A stretch of DNA of 38,111 nt from assembly GCA_947489135.1 (NCBI GenBank), contig CANLCU010000006.1, forward strand, positions 1 to 38,111, read 5' to 3'. The notes under the pieces are model-generated. The model did no database searches and had not been told where the DNA came from. It worked only from the letters and a program-made list of their open reading frames with translations. The stretch is from Micrococcales bacterium (GTDB lineage: Bacteria; Actinomycetota; Actinomycetes; Actinomycetales; Microbacteriaceae). Below are positions 16,209-22,217 of this stretch, in pieces; the first letter of the stretch is position 1, and each line of letters begins with the position of its first letter. The position numbers were made by a program, and so were the translations under genes.

Positions 16209-17599
16209 CGTGACACCTTCACATCTCTTGAAAGCAGGTCTTCTTCTGTTTCAGCTCTAACTATTACATCAACCTTGCCATCTGAAACAGCAACAACTGC
16301 TGCTCTAGCCAAATAGTTGTAGTTGCTGGCTAGCGAGAAGCAGTAGGCACCTGTGGTAGCAACAGCAAGAAGATCGTTCGGAGCAACATCTTCTGGAAGG
16401 TACGCATTCTTAACTACGATGTCCCCTGATTCACAGTGCTTACCAACAACACGAGAAAGAGCTGGCTGAGAATCTGATTCTCTTGAAGCAAGCGTGACGC
16501 TGTAGTCAGCACCGTAGAGAGCAGGTCTAGCGTTATCGCTCATACCGCCATCGATGCTTACATACTTTCTAACAAGTGCATCTTCACCCACTAGAACATC
16601 TTTAGTAGTTCCTACGTTGTAGAGAGTGATTCCAGCTGGACCAACAATTACTCGACCTGGTTCATAAGCAAGAACTGGAATTGGAATTCCAAACTTCTTA
16701 CACTCATGAGCAACTGCATCAGTGATTGCCTTGGCAACTTCTTCAATAGCCAGAGGTGAATCAGCAGGAGTGTATGCAACACCGAATCCTCCACCTAGGT
16801 TCATTTCAGGAACTGGCCCACCCTTTAGAAGTTCTGCTTGAAGAGCAACAAGTCTCTTAGCTGCTTCAACAAAGCCTTCAACGGCAAAGATCTGAGAGCC
16901 GATGTGTGAATGAAGACCTAAGAACTGGAGGTGCTTGTGTGAACGAATCTTCTCAACAAGTGTTGGCACATCTGCCATAGCAATACCGAACTTCTGATCT
17001 TCACGAGCAGTAGCTAGGTATTCGTGAGTGTGTGCGTGCACACCGCTGTTCACTCGAAGTCTCACTGGTTGAATTCGGTCTTGAGCTCCAGCAGCAGATG
17101 CAATTCTTTCAATCTCAATGTCGCTGTCAATAACAATTACGCCAATACCCGCAGCAACAGCACGACCTATTTCGCTGTGCGACTTGTTGTTGCCATGAAG
17201 ACCAATTCTCTTCGCATCAATACCGCCAGCTAACGCAACTGCAAGTTCTCCACCAGATGAAACATCAACATTCATGCCAAGTTGGTCAACCCAGCGAATT
17301 ACTTCGGTTGAAAGGAAAGCCTTACTCGCATAGTAAATCTTTGCTGAAGTGCCGTGCTTTTCAGCTTCTTTAGAGAAGGCCTTGATGATTTGTTTTGCTC
17401 TATCAAAGAACTCTGTTTTGTCTAAGACATAAAGCGGTGAACCAAACTCAGCAACTAGATCGCCAACAGCGTTTCCACCGATAGACACATGTCCATCTGA
17501 TTCACGCTTGAAACTCTTTGGCCATATGCCAGCCTGGATGGCGTTGACATCTTTTGGCACTTCTAGCCAAGACGGAGCTAACTGGTTATCATTCATCAC
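16205..17599 (-). CDS. lysA: Diaminopimelate decarboxylase
   Basis: PLP-dependent decarboxylase making L-lysine from meso-diaminopimelate; 464 residues. The PLP lysine is in [11 protein letters not shown] (K93). HIGSQIF and [12 protein letters not shown] bind cofactor, and the catalytic Cys lies in GKHCESGDI. Start choice: GTG 17599 gives a 4-base overlap with the argS stop (GTGA), while the next codon, ATG 17596, gives a TGATG overlap. Both keep translational coupling. Its place beside hom/thrC/thrB puts both branches from aspartate semialdehyde in one unit. Confidence 0.97.
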
Positions 17600-19260
17600 A
17601 TACGCTCCGGTGCACTAACGCCAAGAACCTTTAGGCCATTAGCTAGAACAACAGATGCTGCGTTGTTTAGCCAAAGTCTGGTTCTGTGGACTGATTCAAC
17701 TTCATTTCCTGAAAGTGGAGTAACTCTACATGCGTCATACCAGCGGTGATATGCACCGGCTACTTCCTCTAGATAACGGGCAACCAGGTGAGGTGCACGC
17801 TCTGTAGAGGAGTGAGCCATTACTGCTGGGAAGCGAGCAAGGGCAGCTAGAAGGTTTGATTCACTCTCGTGAGTTAGAAGACTTGGATCAAACTCGCTGT
17901 CATCAACGCTTAGTGACTGAGCGTTATTGGCAACCTGCTTGGTTCTTGCATGAGCGTACTGGACATAGAAGACAGGGTTGTCATTTGTCTTCTTAGATAG
18001 TTGATCGAGGTCGATATCCACCATTGAGTTGATTGATGATCTAGTCAATGCGTATCTAGCAGCATCCACACCAACTGCATCAACCAAATCTTCCATGGTT
18101 ACTACTGTTCCTGCACGCTTAGACATACGCACTGGTTCACCATCTTGAACTAGGTTTACTAGCTGACCAATAAGAATCTCTAGATTCACTCCAGGCTCAT
18201 CGCCGAAGGCGGCACACATAGCCATCATTCTCTGCACATAGCCGTGGTGATCTGCTCCAAGCATGTAGATTGCCTGATCAAAGCCACGTTCACGCTTATC
18301 TAGATAGTAGGCTAGGTCTCCTGCGATATAGGCTGCTTCACCATCACTCTTGATAACCACACGATCTCTATCATCACCGAATGTTGTTGAACGAAGCCAG
18401 ACAGCACCATCTTGGTCATAGATGTGACCTAGGTCTCTGAGTCTCTCGATAGCTTTCTGAACAGCACCTTGCTCGTAAAGAGAATTCTCATGGAAGAACA
18501 CATCGAAGTGAACGCCAAACTTTTCTAGAGATTCACGAATCTCACCAAACATCAAATCAACACCAGCTGCTCTAAATGTTTCTTTAGCTTCCTCTTCCGG
18601 AAGAGTAGTTGCATTTGGGTGAAGTTCTAAAACTGCCTTTGCAATCTGGTTGATGTATTCACCCGCATAACCATCTTCAGGCGCATCTTCTGATCTAGCT
18701 GCAGCCAGAAGTGATCTAGCAAATCGATCAATCTGGGCACCATGGTCGTTGAAGTAATACTCACGAGTTACTTTTGCACCCTGTGCTTCAAAGATTCTGG
18801 CTAGTGAATCTCCTACTGCTGCCCAACGTGTTCCACCAATATGGATAGGTCCTGTTGGGTTAGCTGAAACAAACTCTAGGTTCATCTTGATTCCAGAAAG
18901 CAAAGTCCCCGCTCCATAGGAATCTCCAGCCTGAACAATCTGCTTAGCAAGTTCTCCAGCAGCTGCTGCACTAAGAGTGATGTTGATAAATCCAGGGCCA
19001 GCAATGTCAACCTTTGAAATACCAGAAACACTTTCTAGTTCTTTGGCTAGCAGGGTTGCTAATTCTCTTGGGTTTGAACCCAACTTCACACCCCACTGCA
19101 TGGCAACGTTAGTTGCCCAATCCCCATGATCTCTGTTCTTTGGTCTTTCAACCACAACTTCAGAAGGCAGATCAATAACAGCCAACTTGCCTTGGGTCTG
19201 CAAAGAGCCCAAGATAGCAAGAATGTGACTGGATAGATCTGCAGGGGTCACGTAATGCAC
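17596..19260 (-). CDS. argS: Arginyl-tRNA synthetase
   Basis: Class I synthetase charging tRNA-Arg; 554 residues. The HIGH-type motif is [10 protein letters not shown] (about 138-146) and the KMSKS-type motif is [11 protein letters not shown]. The Arg-tRNA N-terminal domain (first about 85 residues) and the C-terminal DALR anticodon-binding domain ([18 protein letters not shown] onward) are both present. The start is GTG at 19260; the nearby in-frame GTG four codons later is less likely. It is the first gene of the minus-strand cluster and is divergent from a tRNA-Arg gene. Confidence 0.97.
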
Positions 19261-19405
19261 CTTTACTTTGGGGAATGAATTGATTGGGTTTCAAGGCCAC
19301 AACGCCTTCACCGGTAATCCCCTAAGTCTACCAAAGTGCCTAGCGAGGCCATAAGTGGCTCTGCCTCTTTAGATTAGGCGGCTGGTAGTCTGGGCTTATC
19401 GCCTA
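19261..19405. promoter_or_regulatory. Divergent control region between argS and tRNA-Arg
   Basis: These 145 bases must hold the promoter for the argS-led cluster (minus) and for tRNA-Arg/dedA (plus). I can only point to weak TANNNT boxes (plus strand TAGTCT at 19386-19391; minus strand TAGACT near 19326), without good -35 partners. There is no T-box-like leader before argS. Confidence 0.4.
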
Positions 19406-19477
19406 GCCCCCATAGCTCAGGGGATAGAGCACCGCCCTCCGGAGGCGGGAGCGCAGGTTCGATTCCTGCTGGGGGCA
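19406..19477 (+). tRNA. tRNA-Arg, anticodon CCG
   Basis: A full cloverleaf can be drawn: acceptor GCCCCCA/TGGGGGC, D stem GCTC/GAGC, anticodon stem CCGCC/GGCGG with loop CTCCGGA (anticodon CCG at 19439-19441, reading CGG), and T stem GCAGG/CCTGC with loop TTCGATT. The discriminator is A at 19477. The CCA end is not encoded, so it must be added enzymatically. It is divergent from argS and one base ahead of dedA. Confidence 0.96.
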
Positions 19478-19478
19478 C

Positions 19479-20123
19479 ATGAATATAAACGACATATTGC
19501 ACTTAGACCTTCAAGGCATCTTGAGAGATCTTGGCCCTTTGGCCATGGTCATCGTATGCCTCATCATCATCGCTGAAACAGGGCTATTGGTAGGTTTCTT
19601 CCTGCCTGGCGACTCCCTGCTCTTCACTGTTGGACTGATGATTGGAACTGACCTGCTAGACGTTCCTATCTGGTTAGCCTGCATGCTGATTTCAGCATCA
19701 GCCATAGTTGGAGATCAACTTGGCTACTTCATTGGAAGAAAAGCAGGTCCTGCCGTCTTCAAGCGACCTAATTCAAGATTCTTTAGCCAGAAGAATGCTG
19801 ATAGAGCTCAACAGTTCTTTGTTAAGCACGGAGCTAAGGCAGTTATCTTTGCTCACTATGTTCCAATTCTTCGAACATTCGTGCCAGTGGCAGCTGGTGT
19901 TGGCAAGATGCAGTATTCCTATTACCTGAGAAACAACTTGATTGGAGCGATTAGCTGGGGCATCATCGTTCCCCTGATTGGTTTCTTCTTAGGTCAAATC
20001 CCGTTCGTTAGAGACAACGTGATTTTAGTGACAGTAACTTTGGTAGCTATTTCTTTGATTCCCGTAGTTCTTGAGGTAATCAAGGCTCGTAGAAGAAACT
20101 CAGGATCTAAAGAAACTAATTAG
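19479..20123 (+). CDS. DedA-family membrane protein
   Basis: DedA/VTT-family inner membrane protein, 214 residues. Members are linked to undecaprenyl-phosphate and phospholipid translocation and to envelope homeostasis. Visible markers are AETGLLVGFFLPGDSLLFT (about 32-50), GYFIGRKAGP and the motif FVKHGAKAVIFAHYVPILRT followed by FVPVAAGVGKM. C-terminal hydrophobic helices end in a basic tail. The ATG lies one base after the tRNA-Arg discriminator, so its only upstream purine tract is the GGGGG of the tRNA acceptor stem. The next Met (residue 23) would remove part of the first helix. Its 3' end overlaps rdgB convergently by 24 bases. Confidence 0.93.
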   Translation: MNINDILHLDLQGILRDLGPLAMVIVCLIIIAETGLLVGFFLPGDSLLFTVGLMIGTDLLDVPIWLACMLISASAIVGDQLGYFIGRKAGPAVFKRPNSRFFSQKNADRAQQFFVKHGAKAVIFAHYVPILRTFVPVAAGVGKMQYSYYLRNNLIGAISWGIIVPLIGFFLGQIPFVRDNVILVTVTLVAISLIPVVLEVIKARRRNSGSKETN

Positions 20124-20666
20124 TCCACTCAGAGCTTGCGCTCTGTGGCTCAGTGCATTCTTGATCTCTGGTTCAAGTTCAGCTGCTGTCTGATCAAAAC
20201 CTTCTGGGATAAATACAGGATCATAACCGTGACCATTAGTGCCACGCTCTTCAGTTGAAATGCTTCCTGGCCAAACTCCAGTGAAAGTAGTTTCACCTTC
20301 ATCGGTTACCAATGCAATCGTGCAAACAAATGATGCTGCTCTGTGCTCAGCATGAATGTCTTTTAGTTGAGCTAGTAGCAACCTTCTATTTGCAACATTG
20401 TCTTTTGTGCCTGACCAGATTGCAGTAAAGATTCCAGGAGAACCACCAAGTATCTCAACAGCTAAACCAGAGTCATCAGCAATTGCTGGAAGACCGGTGT
20501 GCTTGTGAGCGGCTCTAGCTTTGATTAGAGCATTCTCTAGAAAACTAATTCCATCTTCTATAGGTTCAGGTCCGTCATAACCAACTAGGTCTAAACCAAC
20601 TGGTTCCAAGATTGCTTTGAGCTCTTGAACCTTGCCTTGGTTATGGGTAGCTAAAACTAGCTGCAT
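20100..20666 (-). CDS. rdgB: Non-canonical purine NTP pyrophosphatase (dITP/XTP)
   Basis: RdgB/HAM1-type enzyme that hydrolyses dITP, ITP and XTP to monophosphates, keeping deaminated purines out of nucleic acids; 188 residues. LVLATHNQGKVQELKAIL is the N-terminal substrate-binding signature. ADDSGLAVEILGGSPGIFTA carries the catalytic/metal Asp pair, GYDPVFIPEG follows, and SHRAQAL closes the base pocket. It follows rph after a 2-base gap, the conserved murI-rph-rdgB order. Its last 24 bases overlap the end of dedA on the other strand. Confidence 0.97.
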   Translation of the reverse strand: MQLVLATHNQGKVQELKAILEPVGLDLVGYDGPEPIEDGISFLENALIKARAAHKHTGLPAIADDSGLAVEILGGSPGIFTAIWSGTKDNVANRRLLLAQLKDIHAEHRAASFVCTIALVTDEGETTFTGVWPGSISTEERGTNGHGYDPVFIPEGFDQTAAELEPEIKNALSHRAQALSGLISFFRS

Positions 20667-20668
20667 GC

Positions 20669-21397
20669 TTAGTTCTGTTCCAAGCTTGATTGCTGGATTG
20701 AAGTTAGTTCTTTAGTTCCAAGCAAAGCCAAATCTAGAAGAGCGTTTAATTCATCTCTATCGAATGCAACGCCTTCTGCGGTTCCTTGAACTTCAACAAA
20801 CTTTCCGCTGCCTGTTACAACAACGTTCATGTCTGTTTCGGCTCTGACGTCTTCTGTATAAGCAAGATCTAGCATCGGTGTTCCATCGATTATGCCCACA
20901 GAGATAGCAGCTATAGAGTCAACGATTACCTTGTTCTTAGCAGGGATGTGGCCATGCTCAATTCCATAGTTAACTGCATCTACCAGAGCAACATATGCTC
21001 CAGTGATAGCAGCAGTTCTAGTTCCACCATCAGCTTGCAAAACATCACAGTCAATAACAATGGTGTTCTCCCCTAGTGCCTTAAAGTCAACTGCTGCTCT
21101 TAGTGCTCTACCAATTAGACGAGAAATCTCGTGGGTTCGACCACCAATTTTGCCTCTAACAGATTCACGATCATTTCTGTCATGGGTTGCACGTGGCAGC
21201 ATTGCATACTCAGCTGTTACCCAACCCTCGCCCTTGCCAACTTTCCAACGAGGAACTCCAGGAGTGAAAGATGCGGTGCAGAGAACTTTGGTTGAACCAA
21301 ATGATATTAGTGCTGAGCCTTCAGCGTGCTCGCTCCAGTTACGCTCAATAGTTACTTTGCGTAATTGATCTGCACTGCGGCCATCTACTCTGCTCAT
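20669..21397 (-). CDS. rph: Ribonuclease PH
   Basis: Phosphorolytic 3'-5' exoribonuclease that trims tRNA 3' ends; 242 residues from the chosen start. The N-terminal [17 protein letters not shown], the [18 protein letters not shown] segment and [17 protein letters not shown] are family blocks; [11 protein letters not shown] and [10 protein letters not shown] follow. I chose ATG 21397 because AAGGA lies about 6 bases upstream and the protein then starts as the family does (MSRVDGR). An ATG at 21430 would add 11 residues unlike the family and overlap murI. Because the tRNA-Arg gene here lacks an encoded CCA, trimming followed by CCA addition is relevant in this organism. Confidence 0.96.
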
Positions 21398-21413
21398 TTG
21401 TTTTCCTTGTTTG

Positions 21414-22217
21414 TTATTGAATCTGTTCAACGTTTTGAACTTCTGGACCTAAGAACCTTCTGGCAAGAACTGCAAAACTCTTTGCGTCTCCAGTTGCCTG
21501 GAATCTAAGTTCTGGTTTAGTGCTTGCGGTTCTTAGAAGATTATGAGCAACCAAGGTGCGGTAAACATCCTTGGCAGTTTCCTCAGCACTGGAAACTAGT
21601 GTCACGTTATCTCCCATGACATAAGACAAAGCTCCGGTTAGAAGTGGATAGTGTGTGCAACCTAGTACAAGAGTGTCCACCTCTGCATTCTTTATCTCCT
21701 GCAAATAGGTTTCAGCCAAAGCAATTACTTCAGGACCAGAAGTGACTCCTCGTTCTACATAGTCAACAAATTCTGGGCAAGCAGCACTTACAAGCTCAAA
21801 TTCAACAGCAGCTGCAAAAGCATCGTCATAAGCCCTAGAGGTGATGGTGGCTGTGGTTCCAATAACGCCAACCTTGCCATTACGAGTAGAGGCAACTGCT
21901 CTTCTAACTGCAGGTTGAATAACTTCAACGACAGGAATTCCGCGACCTTCGGTGTATCTCTCCCTAGCATCACGAAGCACTGCAGCTGATGCAGTATTAC
22001 AAGCAATAACGAGTAACTTCACTCCCTCATCAACCAGACGGTCCATAACATCAAGGGCAAGAGTTCTTACCTCTTGAATTGTTTTGGTGCCATAAGGGGT
22101 GTTTAGAGTGTCACCTAGGTAAATCACTGACTCGTTAGGGAGCTGATCGATAATTGCTCGGGCTACGGTTAGACCACCGACGCCTGAGTCAAAGATACCT
22201 ATAGGTGCATTGTTCAC
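21414..22217 (-). CDS. murI: Glutamate racemase
   Basis: Cofactor-independent racemase supplying D-glutamate for peptidoglycan; 267 residues. The N-terminal [18 protein letters not shown] holds the first catalytic Asp region. The two catalytic cysteines are in [12 protein letters not shown] (C73) and [11 protein letters not shown] (C187), and [10 protein letters not shown] closes the protein. The start is GTG at 22217. There is no Shine-Dalgarno site; a TAGACT box ends 6 bases upstream, suggesting a leaderless message. It is followed by rph and rdgB. Confidence 0.97.

Follow-up and report, generated by a model that had tools for sequence, protein, structure and literature searches.

Excision of tRNA-Arg(CCG) may leave an exactly leaderless dedA mRNA in a bacterium: a candidate counterpart of mitochondrial tRNA punctuation

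Based on the comparison of one tRNA/protein-gene junction, located in a window of 38,111 nucleotides (the whole stretch of DNA analysed here), with its counterparts in related genomes, we consider it probable that the excision of tRNA-Arg(CCG) makes an exactly leaderless dedA mRNA, which would be the equivalent, in a bacterium, of the tRNA punctuation known from mitochondria. The host of this junction is a freshwater actinobacterium. In the mechanism that we propose, the tRNA and dedA would form one transcription unit (with the promoter upstream of the tRNA) and the maturing tRNA would be cut just after C74, the base that follows the discriminator, by an endonuclease that is not RNase Z. The CCA-adding enzyme would complete the tRNA, and the other cleavage product would be a dedA mRNA that begins directly with its start codon, to be translated by the leaderless route that is widely used in actinobacteria. 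The features on which this proposal rests are given below in window coordinates.

19386 to 19391, plus strand: putative extended -10 element, TAGTCT preceded by TGG (TG at 19383-19384); it or a close variant recurs in most relatives
19406 to 19477, plus strand: tRNA-Arg(CCG), on which ARAGORN and Rfam agree
19470 to 19476, plus strand: 3' strand of the tRNA acceptor stem, TGGGGGC, which includes GGGGG
19478 to 19478, plus strand: tRNA position C74, with the proposed cut directly 3' of it
19479 to 20123, plus strand: dedA, 214 amino acids, DedA/VTT family, with a putative leaderless start at A19479

The anticodon CCG of the tRNA occupies 19439-19441 and its discriminator is A19477, which gives the order TGGGGGC-A-C-ATG, with the single base C19478 between the discriminator and the dedA ATG at 19479; ARAGORN and Rfam thus bear out the arrangement described in the first-pass annotation of this DNA. 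The interior of the tRNA holds no in-frame start upstream of this ATG, and a scan of the interval between the tRNA and dedA predicted neither a second promoter (sigma-70-like) nor a terminator. The dedA product matches the VTT domain PF09335 (E=2.5e-17, 63.9 bits vs a gathering score of 33.9) and resembles the DedA family, scoring 175.5 bits against NF008102, under the cut-off of 236; in the family model search, none of the UptA-specific models was matched. Since argS lies upstream in divergent orientation (17596-19260, minus strand) and an rdgB-like ORF converges from downstream, overlapping the 3' end of dedA by 24 nt, dedA is the sole coding gene able to follow the tRNA on the plus strand. 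Beyond the rdgB-like ORF (region 20100-21430), a minus-strand ORF at 20669-21430 looks, by sequence recognition, like RNase PH, which is a tRNA 3' trimming enzyme.

A comparison of the junction among relatives, which the first-pass annotation had advised, showed the spacing to be exact in most of the genomes compared, the majority of which are drafts or MAGs. In a first homologue set, formed by 31 loci where tRNA-Arg(CCG) adjoins dedA, the start codon lies exactly one base past the discriminator in 27, with dedA identity going down to ~48%. A scan of the genus (67 genomes) was then made with the 3' end of tRNA-Arg(CCG) as query, leaving free the discriminator and everything beyond it, and 49 junctions were scored. 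All 49 carry a C after the discriminator, and the dedA start directly follows this C in 45 of them (30 ATG and 15 GTG), a count that overstates the number of events, since the members of the genus share ancestry. The exceptions are one junction at a contig end, without dedA, and three (G019, G028 and G006) where dedA has a leader of 23-24 nt with a TTAGGAG or ACAGGAG Shine-Dalgarno (SD) sequence; L049 is a fourth leadered dedA (42 nt leader, AATAGGAG). The dedA spacers after C74 are, in this way, either 0 or at least 23 nt long, with AGGAG in every longer one. In L048 (G006:C1:419015-419182), a second copy of the final 23 bases of the tRNA-Arg(CCG) region lies ~86 bp downstream, before a dedA with its own AGGAG; the repeat resembles an attachment-site scar or a partial duplication.

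Among the abutting dedA sequences, the first two positions of the codons are conserved and, from codon 2 onward, the variation falls mainly on the third, so the ATG at 19479 is read as the true start. Met23, which had been put forward earlier as an alternative start, was rejected: it is missing in several relatives (L003, L029-L032), and the N-terminus is conserved from codon 2. Judging from these comparisons, the exact one-base spacing between the tRNA and dedA is not chance. Outside the genus, tRNA-Arg(CCG) is often found beside argS without dedA and with an identical acceptor sequence, so the dedA neighbourhood is derived. The dedA of Agrococcus comes after tRNA-Leu(TAG), with a longer gap and with AGGAG present, which is the same contrast as that seen within the genus.

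The base between the discriminator and the start codon is common to all the tRNA genes of G017, a complete genome of the same genus (1,338,021 bases) in which tRNA-Arg(CCG) is single copy. With position 74 assigned for each tRNA by acceptor pairing, C74 is present in 40/40 tRNA genes of this genome, and the full CCA is encoded in only 14; the tRNA-Gln ends of the family, among the matches listed, also carry C74. That C74 is conserved while the next two bases are free suggests that it stays with the tRNA, and the two counts together suggest a genus-wide tRNA 3' cut after C74. Cuts at this place have been mapped in the published transcriptomes of two other actinobacteria. In P. acnes, tRNA cuts within CCA always fall between the Cs and no obvious tRNase Z was found (PMC3848588), and in S. 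coelicolor most CCA-encoding tRNAs are cut between the Cs (PMC4681348). The mapped cuts are those of CCA-encoding tRNAs; where CCA is not encoded, the authors go no further than to suggest that the same enzyme might be at work. A cut after C74 in our genus would make the mRNA start exactly at the AUG or GUG (5'-AUG at dedA).

The first-pass annotation had considered excision by RNase Z, which would leave dedA almost leaderless. Its leaderless product is retained in our reading, and would become exactly leaderless with a cut after C74, as mapped in P. acnes and S. coelicolor; the enzyme, on the other hand, is probably another one. No RNase Z above the TIGR02651 cut-off (293 bits) was found in six genus genomes (G000, G006, G017, G149, G261 and G306, three of them, G006, G017 and G149, being 99% complete), although a very divergent enzyme could escape this search. 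The best matches scored 17-21 bits: the one in G017 belongs to the RNase J family, the N-terminal sequence of two others begins in a similar way, and one in G006 is an unrelated 734-aa ORF. RNase Z was rejected as the processing enzyme on these grounds, and another nuclease is implied for the tRNA 3' cut.

The same observations bear on an alternative position for the cut. RNase Z usually cuts just past the discriminator (PMC10673834), and a cut at this classical site would give a dedA mRNA with a 1-nt leader (C-AUG) and near-leaderless translation, in a size range (leaders of 5 nt or less) that a transcriptome study counts as leaderless (PMC6448022). Nevertheless, no RNase Z was found above the family cut-off in the six genomes, a cut before C74 does not explain why C74 is universal in the absence of an encoded CCA, and the between-C cuts mapped in P. 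acnes and S. coelicolor lie one base further on. Additionally, neither the dedA scan nor the tRNA-Gln/glmU scan (described below) showed a spacer of 1-12 nt after C74. We regard a cut after the discriminator as unlikely.

A further possibility, which we consider highly improbable, dispenses with the cut altogether: the uncut precursor would be translated using the GGGGG of the acceptor stem as SD, with tRNA folding repressing dedA and unfolding permitting its translation. This motif is directly upstream of dedA and, as we infer, could pair with the CCUCC of 16S rRNA (one G-U included). It is, however, only 3 nt away from the ATG, under the 4-12 nt spacing that covers >90% of the genes in C. 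glutamicum (PMC3890552), and it is buried in the predicted 7-bp acceptor stem (in the predicted fold, this stem is formed, GGGGG is paired and the dedA start codon is unpaired). No accessible SD exists 4-12 nt upstream of dedA, the acceptor-stem GGGGG at 3 nt being the only candidate. Moreover, most relatives have GGGG only (TAGGGGC in 34/49 tRNA-Arg(CCG) 3' ends), and TGGGGGC is ordinary tRNA sequence, found as acceptor strand in other genera without dedA downstream; as the acceptor sequence is identical there, GGGGG is not selected as a ribosome site, and the idea of an evolved SD was rejected. The earlier suggestion of an SD hidden in the acceptor stem is therefore weak, given the 3-nt spacing, the presence of GGGGG elsewhere without dedA, and the restriction of AGGAG to loci in which a gap lies between the tRNA and dedA.

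Cleavage of a common precursor, as we propose, requires that dedA be transcribed with the tRNA. TAGTCT is the sole promoter-like element for the tRNA-dedA unit (predicted start at ~19398), and TGG-TAGTCT, or a close variant, lies ~14 nt upstream of the tRNA in most relatives. A generic sigma-70 scan found no promoter at this unit; G017 shows a strong TANNNT consensus for the -10 element, and we take TGG-TAGTCT as a reasonable putative promoter for the whole unit. At a suitable distance in the 3' arm of the tRNA, TANNNT is present in none of the 28 distinct dedA junctions, so dedA depends on the tRNA transcript and is not leaderless by transcription. A separate promoter with its start site after 19477, named in the first-pass annotation as one of the findings that would speak against its reading, is likewise not predicted.

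Leaderless expression itself is likely to be common in the genus. In mycobacteria, leaderless initiation requires an ATG or GTG at the 5' end of the mRNA, and this codon suffices (PMC4633059). In G017, where start codons were assigned crudely, TANNNT ending 6-7 nt upstream of starts is strongly enriched: it ends 6 nt upstream in 6.1% of the candidate starts vs 0.26% of internal ATG/GTG and, when counted by gene, the signal occurs within 5-8 nt in 22% vs 3% of controls, which suggests that ~20% of G017 genes are transcribed leaderless. That such a proportion of genes appears to be expressed in this way lends some plausibility to the alternative in which dedA transcription starts exactly at its ATG, from a promoter within the tRNA gene (ordinary leaderless transcription). 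But TANNNT is lacking at any suitable distance across the 28 junctions, and the constraints on the tRNA leave scant room for a promoter, so a promoter inside the tRNA was rejected and we give this alternative very little credence.

The abutment of C74 and RTG is not restricted to dedA, since it recurs with other genes in other Micrococcales (family and order scans), including in genomes of 3-5 Mb outside the genus. The essential cell-wall gene glmU directly follows C74 of tRNA-Gln(TTG) in several genera (L144, L192-L200), aroQ follows that of tRNA-Ser(TGA) (L143), and a DUF1684 protein directly follows a tRNA C74 as well (L146). A DedA-like ORF comes directly after C74 of tRNA-Leu(TAG) (L187, G135), so that dedA seems to have come to abut a different tRNA independently in this case. 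Two cases occur in two species each: a hexapeptide protein (best match gamma carbonic anhydrase) after tRNA-Arg(TCT) (L068, L069), and a response regulator with an ANTAR domain after tRNA-Leu(CAA) (L141, L142). By sequence inspection, a DLW-39-like small protein (L188), a helicase-like protein (L189) and an aldo/keto-reductase-like protein (L190) are also at C74 junctions; doubtful zero-spacing ORFs (L148, L149, L152, L202) were left out. Within G017, 1/40 tRNA genes abuts an ORF start at C74.

Most of these cases come from fixed-spacing patterns, and show recurrence, not preference. A preference for zero spacing is indicated by the tRNA-Gln scan of the family, in which the spacing was left free: six genomes have zero spacing (four with glmU and two with other ORFs) and, for the other tRNA-Gln/glmU pairs, the shortest visible leader is 13 nt, with SD-like motifs in most of them (the glmU starts of G120, G195, G064 and G185 were placed by eye, giving leaders of ~21-30 nt). 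Patterns with RTG shifted by one or by two bases gave many matches which, among the matches listed, are mostly either short frames running into terminator hairpins or the TG that comes after an encoded CCA (by eye). As coding frames in these shifted scans were judged by eye, the spacing argument rests on the free-spacing dedA and tRNA-Gln scans.

That the abutment reflects genome compaction only, with dedA translated by some leader-independent mechanism or from a start further downstream, and with no role for tRNA processing, is scarcely credible: the genomes are small (0.8-1.6 Mb across the genus) and the 3' end of dedA also overlaps rdgB, but the start codon, C74 and codons 2 onward are conserved with exact spacing in 45/49, Met23 is not conserved, an SD is gained where dedA is separated from the tRNA, and the junction recurs in the 3-5 Mb genomes.

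The reading that we favour, in which tRNA excision yields the leaderless dedA mRNA, has to accommodate a difficulty: an mRNA beginning with a 5'-monophosphate should be exposed to RNase J, an enzyme present in the genus. That tRNA processing regulates dedA, with whatever benefit, is speculation, and a link with lipid-carrier physiology would be hypothetical. Because cells mature their tRNAs constitutively and cannot do without it, one would most simply expect a coupling of supply and not a switch. A more general proposal, namely that actinobacteria without RNase Z cut after C74 and that the 3' ends of tRNA genes have repeatedly acquired directly adjoining genes, resulting in recurrent punctuation with the mRNA yield tied to the maturation of one tRNA, seems to us evenly balanced between right and wrong. 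If the excision reading is true, tRNA processing is, alongside transcription, a way in which leaderless mRNAs can be made in bacteria, and in some species essential genes like glmU would depend on it. The exact 0-nt spacing would then be a natural assay for the cut site of the nuclease, and annotators would gain a simple start-site rule beside tRNAs. Additionally, C74 in 40/40 tRNA genes, together with the lack of a detectable RNase Z in the genomes searched, is genomic support for a further actinobacterial tRNA 3' endonuclease.

The closest known system is the tRNA punctuation of animal mitochondrial transcripts, reportedly described by Ojala, Montoya and Attardi in 1981. In both, an ORF abuts a tRNA with virtually no spacer (45/49 in our genus), and tRNA excision would set the mRNA 5' end and lead to leaderless translation (predicted here from sequence). 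Unlike the mitochondrial case, the junction is in a bacterial chromosome, at about one per genome (1/40 tRNAs in G017) instead of at most genes, the cut at dedA is probably after C74 and not made by RNase Z, and GUG starts are common. With the leaderless mRNAs of actinobacteria (PMC4633059, PMC3848588, PMC3890552), dedA shares the lineage, the pair of start codons, with RTG at the predicted mRNA 5' end, and the lack of an SD; however, those mRNAs owe their 5' ends to transcription that begins at the start codon, whereas dedA has no such promoter and its end would have to come from processing. C74 being kept on the tRNA (a prediction here) and the failure to detect an RNase Z in this genus both have parallels, the former in the between-C cleavage of P. 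acnes and S. coelicolor (PMC3848588, PMC4681348) and the latter in P. acnes (PMC3848588), although the portions of these reports drawn on here present the cleavage only as unusual tRNA processing and mention no consequence for a downstream mRNA. C. glutamicum has eight tRNAs cotranscribed with coding genes (PMC3890552), like the single transcript that we propose, but in those cotranscripts a leader with a ribosome site can intervene, and there is none between tRNA-Arg(CCG) and dedA. In the open-access literature we found no description of tRNA excision making a leaderless mRNA in bacteria. The tRNA punctuation, the actinobacterial leaderless mRNAs and the cleavage after C74 are already known separately; what appears to be new is their combination, in which a bacterial mRNA would be made leaderless by tRNA excision, at a spacing that is exactly conserved.
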